Origin: Phaeobacter piscinae
GTDB taxonomy: Bacteria > Pseudomonadota > Alphaproteobacteria > Rhodobacterales > Rhodobacteraceae
Length of the DNA: 64,000 bases
Direction: 5' to 3'
Assembly (NCBI RefSeq): GCF_002407245.1
Contig: NZ_CP010681.1
Coordinates: 1,178,001 to 1,242,000 of the forward strand
Below are positions 4,471 to 8,007 of the stretch, piece after piece. Position numbers and translations under genes: made by a program. The notes beneath the pieces were generated by a model. It made no database searches. It saw nothing but the letters and a program-made list of their open reading frames with translations, and was not told the DNA's origin. The first letter of the stretch is position 1, and each line of letters begins with the position of its first letter.

Positions 4471-4836
4471 ATGGCAGATACACTTCTCAGCGATATCGAA
4501 CAGGTTCAGGAACTGCTGAAAGACCGCGAACAGGCCGGCGGCGATCTTGCCTCTGCCCTGAAACACGCGCGACGCCGGTTGCCACGCCGGATCTACCGTC
4601 AGGGGATGCGGCTTGCCGAGGCGCAGCATTTGCTGGCGCACCCGAAGCTGCGGCTGACGGTTGAGCATGATCCGTTGCAGCGCGCGGCGCGAGAGGTGAT
4701 CAAGCACCTGAAGTCCATCGACCTGGCAGACCGTCGCCGCGGACGGCTACTGGATATCGTCGCCACAATGGCCTTCTCGCTAATCGTGGTTGCGATATTG
4801 CTCGTGGTGGTGCTGCGCTGGCGGGGATTTGTCTAA
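4471..4836 (+). CDS. Tail-anchored hypothetical protein
   Basis: 121 aa. The first ~90 residues are charged and helical (many Arg, Leu, Glu and Gln; likely coiled-coil), and a single hydrophobic helix at about 95-115 (IVATMAFSLIVVAILLVVVL) ends five residues before the C terminus. This is the layout of a tail-anchored inner-membrane protein facing the cytoplasm. I do not recognise a named family. It ends about 40 bases before the TetR operator, so it may or may not be cotranscribed with the stress module that follows. Confidence 0.7.
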   Translation: MADTLLSDIEQVQELLKDREQAGGDLASALKHARRRLPRRIYRQGMRLAEAQHLLAHPKLRLTVEHDPLQRAAREVIKHLKSIDLADRRRGRLLDIVATMAFSLIVVAILLVVVLRWRGFV

Positions 4837-4874
4837 GGCGTGACACCCCTTTCCCTTGCGGGCGCGGCCCGGTA

Positions 4875-4893
4875 TCTTGAACGTGGTTCAAGA
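4875..4893. promoter_or_regulatory. TetR operator O1 upstream of the tetR gene
   Basis: TCTTGAACGTGGTTCAAGA is an exact palindrome with 8-base arms around a GTG spacer. It ends 16 bases before the TetR start codon and overlaps a plausible -10 (TATCTT at 4873-4878). It shares the TTGAAC-N3-GTTCAA core with three sites downstream of the gene, indicating autoregulation. Confidence 0.8.
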
Positions 4894-4909
4894 CTGAAGG
4901 GCAGAGCGA

Positions 4910-5497
4910 ATGGCAAGCAAGGCCGAAATCCGCAAGCAAGAGTTGCGTGAAAAACTGGTGGCAGCGGCTGAGATCCGCATTCGCCGTGATGGGGCAGGGG
5001 CACTGCGGGCGCGGGATCTTGCGACGGACGCGGGCTGCGCGGTGGGCGCCATTTACAATGCCTTTGACGATATGAATGCCATTGTGATGGCGGTGAACGG
5101 GCAGACCTTTCAGGCGTTGGGGCAGGCTGTGCGGCAGTCTCTCAACGGGGCGGAAGCTGCGGCGCCGACCGAACGGCTGATCCTGATGAGCAATGCGTAT
5201 CTGGGATTCGCCGCTGAGAATACCCGGCTGTGGCGCGCCTTGTTTGATGTGCAGGCGGAGGAGACGGAGGTCCCTGACTGGTACCGCGCCGCGCTGGAGG
5301 ATCTGTTTTCAAACATTGCGGCGCCGGTTGCGGAGATTTTTCCCGACAAAACACCCCAAGATTTGGTGCTTATGGTGCGGGCGTTGTTCTCGGCCGTGCA
5401 TGGAATCGTTTTGTTGGGACTGGAAAACCGGATCTCCGGCGTGCCGGTTGACCAAATTGAGCGCATGATTTCCGAGGTGTTGTCGCGGCTTACATGA
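4910..5497 (+). CDS. TetR-family repressor of the pspA module
   Basis: 195 aa. The N-terminal TetR helix-turn-helix spans about residues 10-57 (KLVAAAEIRIRRDG, ARDLATDAGCAVGAIYNAFDDM). The C-terminal ligand-binding region is alpha-helical and diverged, as usual for the family. Palindromes with a TGAAC-N3-GTTCA core lie just upstream of its start and three times just downstream of its stop, before pspA. I infer that it represses both itself and the pspA/yiaA-like operon until an envelope-related ligand or stress releases it. The inducer is unknown. Confidence 0.9.
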   Translation: MASKAEIRKQELREKLVAAAEIRIRRDGAGALRARDLATDAGCAVGAIYNAFDDMNAIVMAVNGQTFQALGQAVRQSLNGAEAAAPTERLILMSNAYLGFAAENTRLWRALFDVQAEETEVPDWYRAALEDLFSNIAAPVAEIFPDKTPQDLVLMVRALFSAVHGIVLLGLENRISGVPVDQIERMISEVLSRLT

Positions 5498-5499
5498 TT

Positions 5500-5518
5500 T
5501 TTTGAACATCGTTCAAAA
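5500..5518. promoter_or_regulatory. TetR operator O2
   Basis: TTTTGAACATCGTTCAAAA has exact 8-base arms and an ATC spacer. It begins two bases after the tetR stop codon and sits just upstream of the candidate pspA promoter. Confidence 0.8.
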
Positions 5519-5524
5519 TAATGC

Positions 5525-5539
5525 TTGAACGGCGTTCAA
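5525..5539. promoter_or_regulatory. TetR operator O3, overlapping the pspA -35 box
   Basis: TTGAACGGCGTTCAA has exact 6-base arms and a GGC spacer. Its left arm is also the -35 hexamer of the candidate pspA promoter, so bound repressor would block RNA polymerase. Its centre is 23 bases from O2. Confidence 0.8.
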
Positions 5540-5553
5540 AAAATTTCTATACC
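5525..5553 (+). promoter_or_regulatory. pspA: Candidate sigma-70 promoter of pspA
   Basis: TTGAAC (5525-5530), 17 bases, TATACC (5548-5553). The spacing is ideal, and the predicted start near 5560 abuts operator O4. The pspA ATG follows at 5590 after a GGAGGAAACC ribosome-binding site. Confidence 0.65.
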
Positions 5554-5560
5554 CATATTG

Positions 5561-5573
5561 TGAACGATGTTCA
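5561..5573. promoter_or_regulatory. TetR operator O4 at the transcription start
   Basis: TGAACGATGTTCA has exact 5-base arms and a GAT spacer. It is the weakest of the four sites, positioned just after the predicted transcription start of pspA. Confidence 0.65.
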
Positions 5574-5589
5574 TGATATGGAGGAAACC

Positions 5590-6267
5590 ATGTTTGCAAC
5601 GATTAAGACCTTGATCCGGGGCATTGATGCCCGCGCTGAAGAGCGGTTGAGCGACAACTATGCGATTGAGCTGATTGATCAGAAGATCCGCACCGGCGAG
5701 GCCGATCTGACCCGCGCCAAACAGGCGCTGGCTGGTTTGATCCAGAAATCCCGTATGGAGACCCGTCAACTGGAGGCGGTCACAACGCGGATCAACGATC
5801 TGACGGAACGGGCCCGAGCGGCACTTGCAGAGGATCGCCAGGATCTCGCGCAGGCTGCGGCCACCGCCATTGCCGAGCTGGAAAACGAGCAAGCCATGCG
5901 TCGCCGCACCGTCGATATGCTGGAGCAGCGCAGCCTGCAGCTGCGCCAATCCGTCGAGGCCTGTCATCGCCGCCTGATGGATCTGAAACAGGGTGCGGTT
6001 GCAGCACGGGCCACCCGGAAGGCGCAAGGCGCACATATTGGCATGGCCCGGGGCGAAACCTCCGGCGACACGCTGGGGGAGGCGGAGGCGCTGATCAAGC
6101 GTGTGATGTCTGCCGAAGATCCGTTTGAGCATAGCGAAATCCTGAAGGACATCGAAACCGGGCTGAGCCATGGCACGGTGGTAGACGATCTGGCGGATGC
6201 CGGGTTCGGCGCCCCGACACGCAGTACGGCTGCGGATGTTCTGGCGCGGCTGACGCCGAAAAGCTGA
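5590..6267 (+). CDS. pspA: PspA/IM30-family envelope stress protein
   Basis: 225 aa, close to the usual PspA length. It opens with the amphipathic FATIKTLIRGIDARAEERL segment and continues as a long coiled coil (about residues 25-145: DLTRAKQALAGLI, RQLEAVTTRINDL, ENEQAMRRRTVDMLEQRS). The C-terminal part is less regular and ends in ADVLARLTPKS. PspA proteins assemble on the cytoplasmic face of the inner membrane and help keep it sealed under stress. I place the start at 5590 because GGAGGAAACC is immediately upstream. PspF-type sigma-54 activation is not evident; the operators indicate TetR control instead. Confidence 0.88.
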   Translation: MFATIKTLIRGIDARAEERLSDNYAIELIDQKIRTGEADLTRAKQALAGLIQKSRMETRQLEAVTTRINDLTERARAALAEDRQDLAQAAATAIAELENEQAMRRRTVDMLEQRSLQLRQSVEACHRRLMDLKQGAVAARATRKAQGAHIGMARGETSGDTLGEAEALIKRVMSAEDPFEHSEILKDIETGLSHGTVVDDLADAGFGAPTRSTAADVLARLTPKS

Positions 6268-6345
6268 CACATCGCCAGCGCCCAGAAATTGGCGCAGCTT
6301 TCTTAAGTATTTGAAAAACCAAGACCACCAACCGGGAGAGACCCA

Positions 6346-6630
6346 ATGACCAACGCACGCAACGACAACAACCTGATCATCACCCTCAATGTGGCCGGTG
6401 TGGCCGTGGCTTACGGGATGCTGGGGATTTCGCTCTGGCTTTCGACCGAGGTGCCGCTGGCAACCAAAGGCTTCTGGGGTATGGGCATCATGCTGCTGAC
6501 ACTGAGCCTGATCAACGTTGTGAAATACCGCTTTGACATCCGTTCAAGCGAGGACCGTATCCGCCGCATCGAAGAGGCGCGCAATGAGAAGATGCTGGAA
6601 GAGGCGTTGGCTGAGACCAAACCGCTCTGA
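6346..6630 (+). CDS. YiaA/YiaB-like two-helix inner membrane protein
   Basis: 94 aa. Two hydrophobic helices (about residues 11-33 and 38-60; LNVAGVAVAYGMLGISLWLS and FWGMGIMLLTLSLINVVKY) match the YiaAB two-helix domain. A charged helical tail (SSEDRIRRIEEARNEKMLEEALAE) probably faces the cytoplasm. GGGAGAG lies upstream of the start. It follows pspA by about 80 bases on the same strand and precedes a strong terminator, so I infer one operon: a membrane partner for the PspA-like protein. Confidence 0.8.
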   Translation: MTNARNDNNLIITLNVAGVAVAYGMLGISLWLSTEVPLATKGFWGMGIMLLTLSLINVVKYRFDIRSSEDRIRRIEEARNEKMLEEALAETKPL

Positions 6631-6658
6631 TCTGGTAGGCAGTCACAGCCCAAAAGAC

Positions 6659-6697
6659 AACCGCCGCGCACCAAGGGTACGCGGCGGTTCTTTTTTC
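6659..6697 (+). terminator. Rho-independent terminator of the pspA operon
   Basis: AACCGCCGCG (6659-6668) pairs perfectly with CGCGGCGGTT (6680-6689) across an 11-base loop and is followed by CTTTTTTC. It lies between the convergent pspA operon and glyA. Confidence 0.85.
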
Positions 6698-6708
6698 ATT
6701 CGAACGGC

Positions 6709-8007
6709 TTAGTGGTTCGGGTAGAGCGGGAAACGGGCGCAGAGGGCGGCCACTTTCTCACGTACCGAAGCCTCGACCGCAGCGTTGCCATCTTCGCCAT
6801 TGGCGGCCAGACCGTCGACAACTTCGATGATCAGATCCGCGATCTCGCGGAATTCTGCCTCTCCAAAGCCACGGGTGGTGCCCGCCGGGGTGCCAAGGCG
6901 GATGCCCGAGGTCACAGTCGGCTTTTCCGGGTCGAACGGGATGCCGTTCTTGTTGGTGGTGATATGGGCGCGGCCCAGAGCCTTGTCCACGATATTACCG
7001 GTCACGCCTTTGGGGCGCAGGTCGACCAGCATGACATGGGTGTCGGTGCCGCCGGTGACGATATCCAGACCGCCTTTGATCAGCTGATCCGCGAGGGCCA
7101 CGGCATTGGCGCGCACCTGCTTCTGATAGTCTTTGAACTCAGGACGCAGCGCCTCGCCAAAGGCCACTGCCTTGGCGGCGATCACATGCATCAGCGGGCC
7201 ACCCTGGATACCGGGGAAGATCGCGGAGTTCACCTTCTTTGCGATATCGGCATCGTTGGTCAGGATCATGCCACCGCGCGGGCCGCGCAGGGTTTTATGC
7301 GTGGTGGTGGTGGCAACATGGGCATGCGGGAAGGGGGAGGGGTGCTCACCCGCGGCGACCAGACCGGCGAAATGCGCCATGTCGACATGCAGGTAGGCGC
7401 CAACCTTATCAGCGATTTCGCGGAAGCGGGCAAAGTCGATGACGCGCGGAATGGCGGAACCACCGGCGATGATCAGCTTGGGCTGATGCTCAACTGCGAG
7501 GGCCTCAACCTGGTCGTAGTCAATCAGGCAGTCGTCTTCGCGCACACCGTAGTGAACCGCGTTGAACCATTTGCCGGACTGGTTGGGGCGCGCACCGTGA
7601 GTGAGGTGACCGCCGGAGGCCAGATCCATACCAAGGATGGTGTCGCCGGGTTTGATCAACGCCTGGAACACACCCTGGTTGGCCTGTGAGCCGGAGTTGG
7701 GCTGCACGTTTGCGAATTCACACCCAAACAGCTGCTTGGCGCGGTCGATGGCAAGGTTCTCTGCAACATCAACGTATTGGCAGCCGCCATAGTAGCGACG
7801 ACCCGGGTAGCCCTCGGCGTATTTGTTGGTCAGGACAGTGCCCTGGGCCTCCATCACGGCGGCGGAGACGATGTTTTCCGACGCGATCAGTTCGATCTCG
7901 TCGCGCTGACGACCAAGTTCATCCGTGACTGAGCCGAACAGCTCCGGATCGCGCTCGGCGAGGGATTGGGTGAAAAAACCGGGGTCGCGGGAAGTGGTCT
8001 CGGTCAT
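6709..8007 (-). CDS. glyA: Serine hydroxymethyltransferase
   Basis: 432 aa. It interconverts serine and glycine with tetrahydrofolate and supplies one-carbon units. The family motifs are clear: [29 protein letters not shown], the PLP-lysine motif [14 protein letters not shown], and the C-terminal [16 protein letters not shown]. The frame is open for 75 codons further upstream, but that extension is not GlyA-like. The ATG at 8007 has GGAG 9-12 bases upstream and gives the normal length. It is divergent from nadK with a 170-base shared promoter region. Confidence 0.98.

Follow-up and report, generated by a model that had tools for sequence, protein, structure and literature searches.

In many groups of bacteria, membranes are protected by PspA-type proteins, and the classical Psp circuit relies on PspF and sigma-54. 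The locus analyzed here lies in a 64,000-nucleotide stretch of the Phaeobacter piscinae genome (the window) and raises the question of how a PspA-family gene is controlled when its immediate upstream neighbor encodes a TetR-family regulator. The control of PspA has been worked out for few circuits only, as is also the picture given by the article text of a 2024 survey of the PSP response (PMC11237479). The three genes concerned are the following.

4910-5497, plus strand: tetR, TetR-family regulator of 195 aa with a TetR_C_33 C-terminal domain
5590-6267, plus strand: pspA-like gene of the PspA/IM30 (ESCRT-III) family, 225 aa, the sole PF04012 match in the genome
6346-6630, plus strand: yiaA-like gene, 94 aa, YiaAB two-helix domain, assigned from profile score and gene order in relatives

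The label PspA, given to the second gene in the first-pass annotation, holds for the family and fails for the equivalog: the protein scores 55.3 bits against PF04012 (gathering score, 33.9) but 21.4 bits against the PspA equivalog model TIGR02977, for which the cut-off is 242.95. A structure model built on an alignment of 37 PspA rows chosen from pspA-relative loci (pLDDT, 74; pTM, 0.56) has the long helical hairpin fold of Vipp1/PspA, and the top 15 Foldseek rows are all Vipp1/PspA (query TM, 0.34 to 0.55), with an E value below 0.001 for the first only (6e-4). The YiaA-like protein reaches 25.3 bits against PF05360, for which the gathering score is 26.6. Relatives of pspA were collected by scanning named species genomes with the PspA protein, and yiaA lies downstream of pspA in every one of the 80 loci kept (best 80 of 148); judged from sequence, the two probably form one operon. 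Neither PspB nor PspC is present in the pspA operon, where the next gene is YiaAB-like and the following long frame is on the other strand. Between yiaA and this convergent gene, a 14-pair hairpin with a T-rich tail (6659-6689) is reported for the minus strand; visual inspection shows a plus-strand T run as well, and the hairpin is possibly a shared terminator.

In the regulator, the C-terminal ligand domain is assigned with 44.8 bits against TetR_C_33 (cut-off, 26.8). TetR_N scores 20.6 bits, under its cut-off of 24, and the fold is clear in a structure model based on 35 TetR rows chosen from pspA-relative loci, so that a TetR-type N-terminal helix-turn-helix is judged to be present. The model matches lipid-binding (FasR and FadR) and drug-binding (QacR and EthR) TetR proteins about equally, and the lipid-binding repressors FasR and FadR (Bacillus and Thermus) are among the closest known systems to this TetR. 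A close relative has been solved as PDB 3CJD, a putative TetR regulator from Jannaschia sp. CCS1; its title gives no function, operator, or target, and our search found no paper naming it.

Around these genes, the first-pass annotation had placed four palindromes that share a TGAAC-N3-GTTCA core, three of them with the longer form TTGAAC-N3-GTTCAA, and both the positions and the longer forms were confirmed. They are listed with the promoters predicted from sequence; the palindromes have no strand.

4850-4878, plus strand: predicted tetR promoter, TTTCCC-N17-TATCTT, with its -10 overlapping operator 1
4875-4893, no strand: operator 1, TCTTGAACGTGGTTCAAGA, perfect arms over 19 bp, overlapping the predicted tetR -10 and start
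5500-5518, no strand: operator 2, TTTTGAACATCGTTCAAAA, perfect arms over 19 bp, at about -60 to -42 if the start is near 5560
5525-5539, no strand: operator 3, TTGAACGGCGTTCAA, perfect arms over 15 bp, its left half forming the predicted pspA -35
5525-5553, plus strand: predicted pspA promoter, TTGAAC-N17-TATACC, with TTG retained in loci that have no exact operator 3
5561-5573, no strand: operator 4, TGAACGATGTTCA, perfect arms over 13 bp, at the predicted transcription start

These sites are rare. The core has four exact copies in the window, where 100 shuffled sequences averaged 0.03 and never exceeded 1, and five in the whole genome of 4,129,511 bases (reversed control, 2), with the fifth copy lying within a carboxypeptidase Taq (M32) gene. 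The longer 15-mer has three places in the genome at 0 mismatches and, in a list ordered by mismatch that passes from 0 directly to 2, none elsewhere at 0 or 1; allowing 2 mismatches gives 70 places versus 44 for the reversed control. As far as sequence matches tell, strong operator sites in P. piscinae are seen at the tetR-pspA locus only, and weaker ones may lie elsewhere. A wider regulon within this genome is unsupported, the 15-mer having no further places at 0 or 1 mismatch.

The placement of operator 1 on the tetR promoter and of the other three at the pspA promoter, as first described, agrees with the promoters predicted here. A generic sigma-70 scan of positions 4800-6760 returned zero promoters at its threshold; that threshold demands a final T, which TATACC does not have. 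At the tetR promoter, there is weak conservation, T-rich and TAT-like, at -29 to -26 and -6 to -4 relative to the site core. At the pspA promoter, a natural experiment supports the earlier proposal that operator 3 doubles as the -35 box. Among the best 80 of 148 relatives, 29 loci have two exact sites 55 to 59 bases apart upstream of pspA and no exact site in the middle, the best middle match having 3 to 6 mismatches in 27 of them and one mismatch in 2. By eye, TTG is nevertheless retained at -35 in all 29, often as TTGACC, TTGATC, or TTGCAA, and the -35 element thus appears to outlive the decay of the operator.

The same geometry accounts for spacing. The steps of 23 bases between operators 2 and 3 and 35 bases between operators 3 and 4, read earlier as a sign of cooperative binding, are correct as centre-to-centre distances, and among the best 80 of 148 relatives the 50 three-site loci have 23 (38 loci), 22 (11), or 21 (1) for the first step and 35 (26), 36 (20), or 34 (4) for the second. 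We reject the cooperative reading as an inference from spacing, although binding may still be cooperative: the 35-base step arises because the sites occupy -35 and +1, and distances of 23, 35, and 58 bp correspond to 2.2, 3.3, and 5.5 helical turns at 10.5 bp per turn, none a whole number.

Conservation of the motif at orthologous loci was one of the two points on which the first-pass annotation had staked its reading. Among the best 80 of 148 relatives, exact sites are found within 160 bases upstream of pspA in 80 of 80 loci, three in 50 loci and two in 30; tetR is upstream of pspA in 79 of the 80, and 78 of these 79 have an exact site upstream of tetR. Elsewhere in the 645,041 bases of these 80 loci the motif occurs once, and the reversed control occurs once over the whole loci. 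The centre triplet follows R-N-Y in 206 of 210 pspA-promoter sites from the same 80 loci. As PspA identity within this set falls to 50%, the sites persist while the genes diverge.

A draw of 100 genomes, spread evenly over the Rhodobacteraceae, removes the bias of these best 80 of 148 toward closest relatives. A PspA/IM30 gene is present in 22 of the 100, at least two exact sites lie upstream of pspA in all 22, and a tetR orthologue adjoins pspA in 21, which fits well with the suggestion of the first-pass annotation that a TetR protein may control a PspA/YiaA module. The exception (G118) has pspA with sites, and the TetR closest to them, some 1.6 kb downstream, is only distantly related (30%).

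The association also emerges when the motif alone is followed. A blind search for two cores 8 to 12 bases apart in 295 Rhodobacteraceae genomes, with the reversed pattern as control, yielded 50 places in 47 genomes and none for the control. The expectation that matches would occur only beside tetR-pspA pairs stood in part: 44 of the 50 places adjoin a PspA-family gene (5 of the 44 read from pspA-relative loci), but the others do not. Nine of the 44 have a divergent tetR-pspA pair, for which three sites in the common gap serve both genes, with no separate tetR site. Within the 100-genome draw, the tandem stands beside pspA in 18 of 22 genomes with PspA and is present in 1 of 78 without it (G013; Fisher P = 4e-15); a nineteenth PspA-bearing genome (G085) has a tandem, but elsewhere than at pspA. 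The four genomes without a tandem at pspA comprise two with no exact operator 3 and two with no exact operator 2. A class-level draw of 385 genomes contains 7 with the tandem, namely 3 of 5 Rhodobacteraceae and 4 of 380 others. One of these four (L222) has divergent tetR and pspA-yiaA with three sites, another (L227) has a weakly similar TetR and three sites adjoining another gene, and the last two (L221 and L223), in which the centre differs, resemble chance matches or repeats.

Sequence comparison thus shows the sites, the geometry of the promoters, the order of the genes, and the joint occurrence of genes and sites; a one-component TetR-type control circuit for the PspA/IM30 operon is, in our judgment, very probable. 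Three of its elements are inferred: binding by this TetR, repression, and the operon structure of the targets. A TetR dimer would bind the TGAAC-RNY-GTTCA palindromes; through operator 1, which overlaps the tetR promoter, it would regulate its own gene, and through operators 2 to 4 it would cover the pspA-yiaA promoter at three places, namely upstream at about -60 to -42, over the -35 element, and around the start. Sites on the -35 and the start have the layout of repression by polymerase exclusion, and bound repressor would accordingly be expected to exclude RNA polymerase. When the membrane is stressed, a ligand that is probably a small hydrophobic molecule might be made or set free and then fill the C-terminal pocket, whereupon TetR would let go and PspA and the two-helix membrane protein would be made. 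Both the hydrophobic character of the ligand and the nature of the signal are a guess.

It is conceivable that TetR instead acts as an activator, or as both, with site 2 helping polymerase and the promoter-proximal sites tuning its action. The outer sites hold their distance of 55 to 59 bases even in the 29 loci that have no exact operator 3, and the stretch between operator 2 and the pspA -35 is AT-rich, as this would suggest. However, a protein bound on the -35 and at +1 would stand in the way of polymerase, the AT-rich stretch could equally well be an UP element occluded at site 2, and two of the 22 PspA-bearing genomes (L236 and L237) have no exact operator 2. We consider activation very unlikely.

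Hardly probable either is a different regulator, such as a TetR paralogue or a LexA-like repressor, that reads the sites while tetR is merely a regulated neighbor. Gram-positive LexA boxes resemble GAAC...GTTC, which lends this idea some appeal, but none of the LexA spacings GAAC-N4-GTTC, GTTC-N7-GTTC, and GAAC-N7-GAAC is found in positions 4841-5600. A case for another reader comes from Ruegeria sp. ANG-R (L039, 3900-4001), in which tetR and operators 1 and 2 are gone, pspA, yiaA, and operators 3 and 4 are kept, and the best TetR match anywhere in the genome is 22% identical; this may reflect a recent loss of tetR or another reader of the two remaining sites. Against it, tetR and sites co-occur in 21 of 22 PspA-bearing genomes, and copies of tetR with no pspA in the flanks retrieved still own a site (L208 in G161 and L209 in G246). 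That the palindromes, with their 3-base centres, are RNA hairpins or repeats with no regulatory role is a negligible prospect, as the predicted pspA start comes only after sites 2 and 3, the centre varies within the R-N-Y pattern, and the core precedes both genes and is almost absent elsewhere.

Repression by TetR, the reading preferred here, would place the locus outside the PspF/sigma-54 scheme, as first proposed. No GG-N10-GC signature of sigma-54 is present in the 92-bp gap upstream of pspA (5498-5589), and a loose sigma-54 pattern with 3 mismatches occurs in the window at chance level (348 versus 353). PspF exceeds the TIGR02974 cut-off in none of 25 Rhodobacteraceae genomes; it does so in 2 of 41 genomes in all, both of other families, and in 1 of 14 control genomes. 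Matches to the PspF model under the cut-off were found in 15 of the 25 (P. piscinae, 217.9 bits versus 443.55) and are presumably other NtrC-type regulators.

Comparison with known systems places this arrangement in context. Enterobacterial Psp (PspF, sigma-54, PspA, PspB, and PspC) likewise combines PspA/IM30 and a small membrane protein with dedicated local regulation, but PspF and sigma-54 act there, whereas here a TetR would act on a -35/-10 promoter, and the partner is PspB/PspC there and YiaAB-like here. In the article text of the 2024 survey, which covers PspF, LiaRS, and ClgR systems and includes alphaproteobacterial PspF variants, LiaRS-LiaH of Bacillus and ClgR-PspAMN of mycobacteria likewise have PspA homologues under regulators other than PspF, although these are a two-component system and a Cro-type helix-turn-helix regulator, in contrast to the TetR here (PMC11237479). 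The string "tetr" has no occurrence in that text, supplements and web app aside, and no TetR control is seen there. In the open-licence literature, with regulon databases such as RegPrecise outside its scope, our search found no report of TetR control of pspA among the titles listed, nor a paper bringing together PspA, TetR, and YiaA or linking YiaAB with phage shock; as far as these searches reach, the proposed TetR-controlled PspA operon is a new regulatory variant of a known response. A study of a roseobacter proteome (PMC6308992) notes PspA as relevant under 8 of 16 conditions, heavy metal stress among them.

The operator is also found before other genes, some of them envelope related. At three of the six tandem places away from pspA, the gene that follows encodes a membrane protein of one kind, as judged by eye. 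In the same list we give the operons in which a distant TetR (about 30% identical) is joined by a small secreted-looking protein and a DUF2145 protein, with an operator upstream. Pfam and NCBIfam scans of such targets covered chosen genes only.

L146:1755-1824, L149:3709-3744, and L155:2957-3026: operator array before the membrane protein, which has no Pfam match in any of the three and no NCBIfam match at L149 and L155
L177:6244-8093, L168:3065-4943, and L169:6784-8705: TetR-DUF2145 operon, assigned by Pfam for L168 and L177 and by resemblance for L169

Two genomes (G028 and G236) have the array both before this membrane protein and at pspA. Of the other tandem places, one (L147:3722-3755) precedes the gene of a predicted DUF2339 membrane protein in G084, a genome with a divergent tetR-pspA locus as well, one (L156) precedes a small protein with, by eye, a lipoprotein-like start, and L150 is the sixth. 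The TetR-DUF2145 operon comes after pspA-yiaA in G118 (L177). At L166:5276-7219, a TetR about 30% identical is divergent from a fatty acid hydroxylase gene, and two TGAAC-N3-GTTCA sites lie 35 bases apart, between or at the gene starts. Among 33 chosen TetR loci, the pattern [AS][VLA]G[AGNST][IL]Y in the recognition helix fits the site-linked regulators inspected; as it also occurs in the TetR at L171, where 8 kb contain no exact site, the helix pattern is not sufficient. On sequence grounds, it seems that a subfamily of TetR repressors with envelope-related roles uses this operator and that pspA is its main target in the Rhodobacteraceae. In one genome with no PspA/IM30 gene (G032, L170:4442-5109), a tetR orthologue 54% identical has one operator, which also departs from the expected pairing with pspA; the TetR can therefore exist without a pspA target, and pspA is not its only possible role.

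More speculatively, the PspA/ESCRT-III response might have been rewired throughout the Rhodobacteraceae to a TetR that senses a membrane-derived hydrophobic molecule in place of the PspA-PspF switch, and in some lineages the operator might have spread to DUF2339, multi-helix membrane, and secreted DUF2145 genes to form a small envelope-stress regulon. We hold this wider scenario tentatively and think it rather doubtful as a whole.

The proposed circuit can be read in its entirety from DNA (regulator, four operators, promoter, and targets), and it is found again and again in a family to which common marine bacteria belong. What signals to PspA where there is no PspF can be put to a direct test with a single protein, a 100-bp DNA, and a screen of ligands; for a close TetR relative, a crystal structure (3CJD) is already deposited, and Ruegeria sp. 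ANG-R provides a natural strain with no tetR. Upstream of tetR, the window also holds a 121-aa open reading frame (4471-4836) with a C-terminal hydrophobic stretch and no Pfam match; absent from Loktanella loci, it precedes tetR in many Phaeobacter, Ruegeria, and Leisingera loci.
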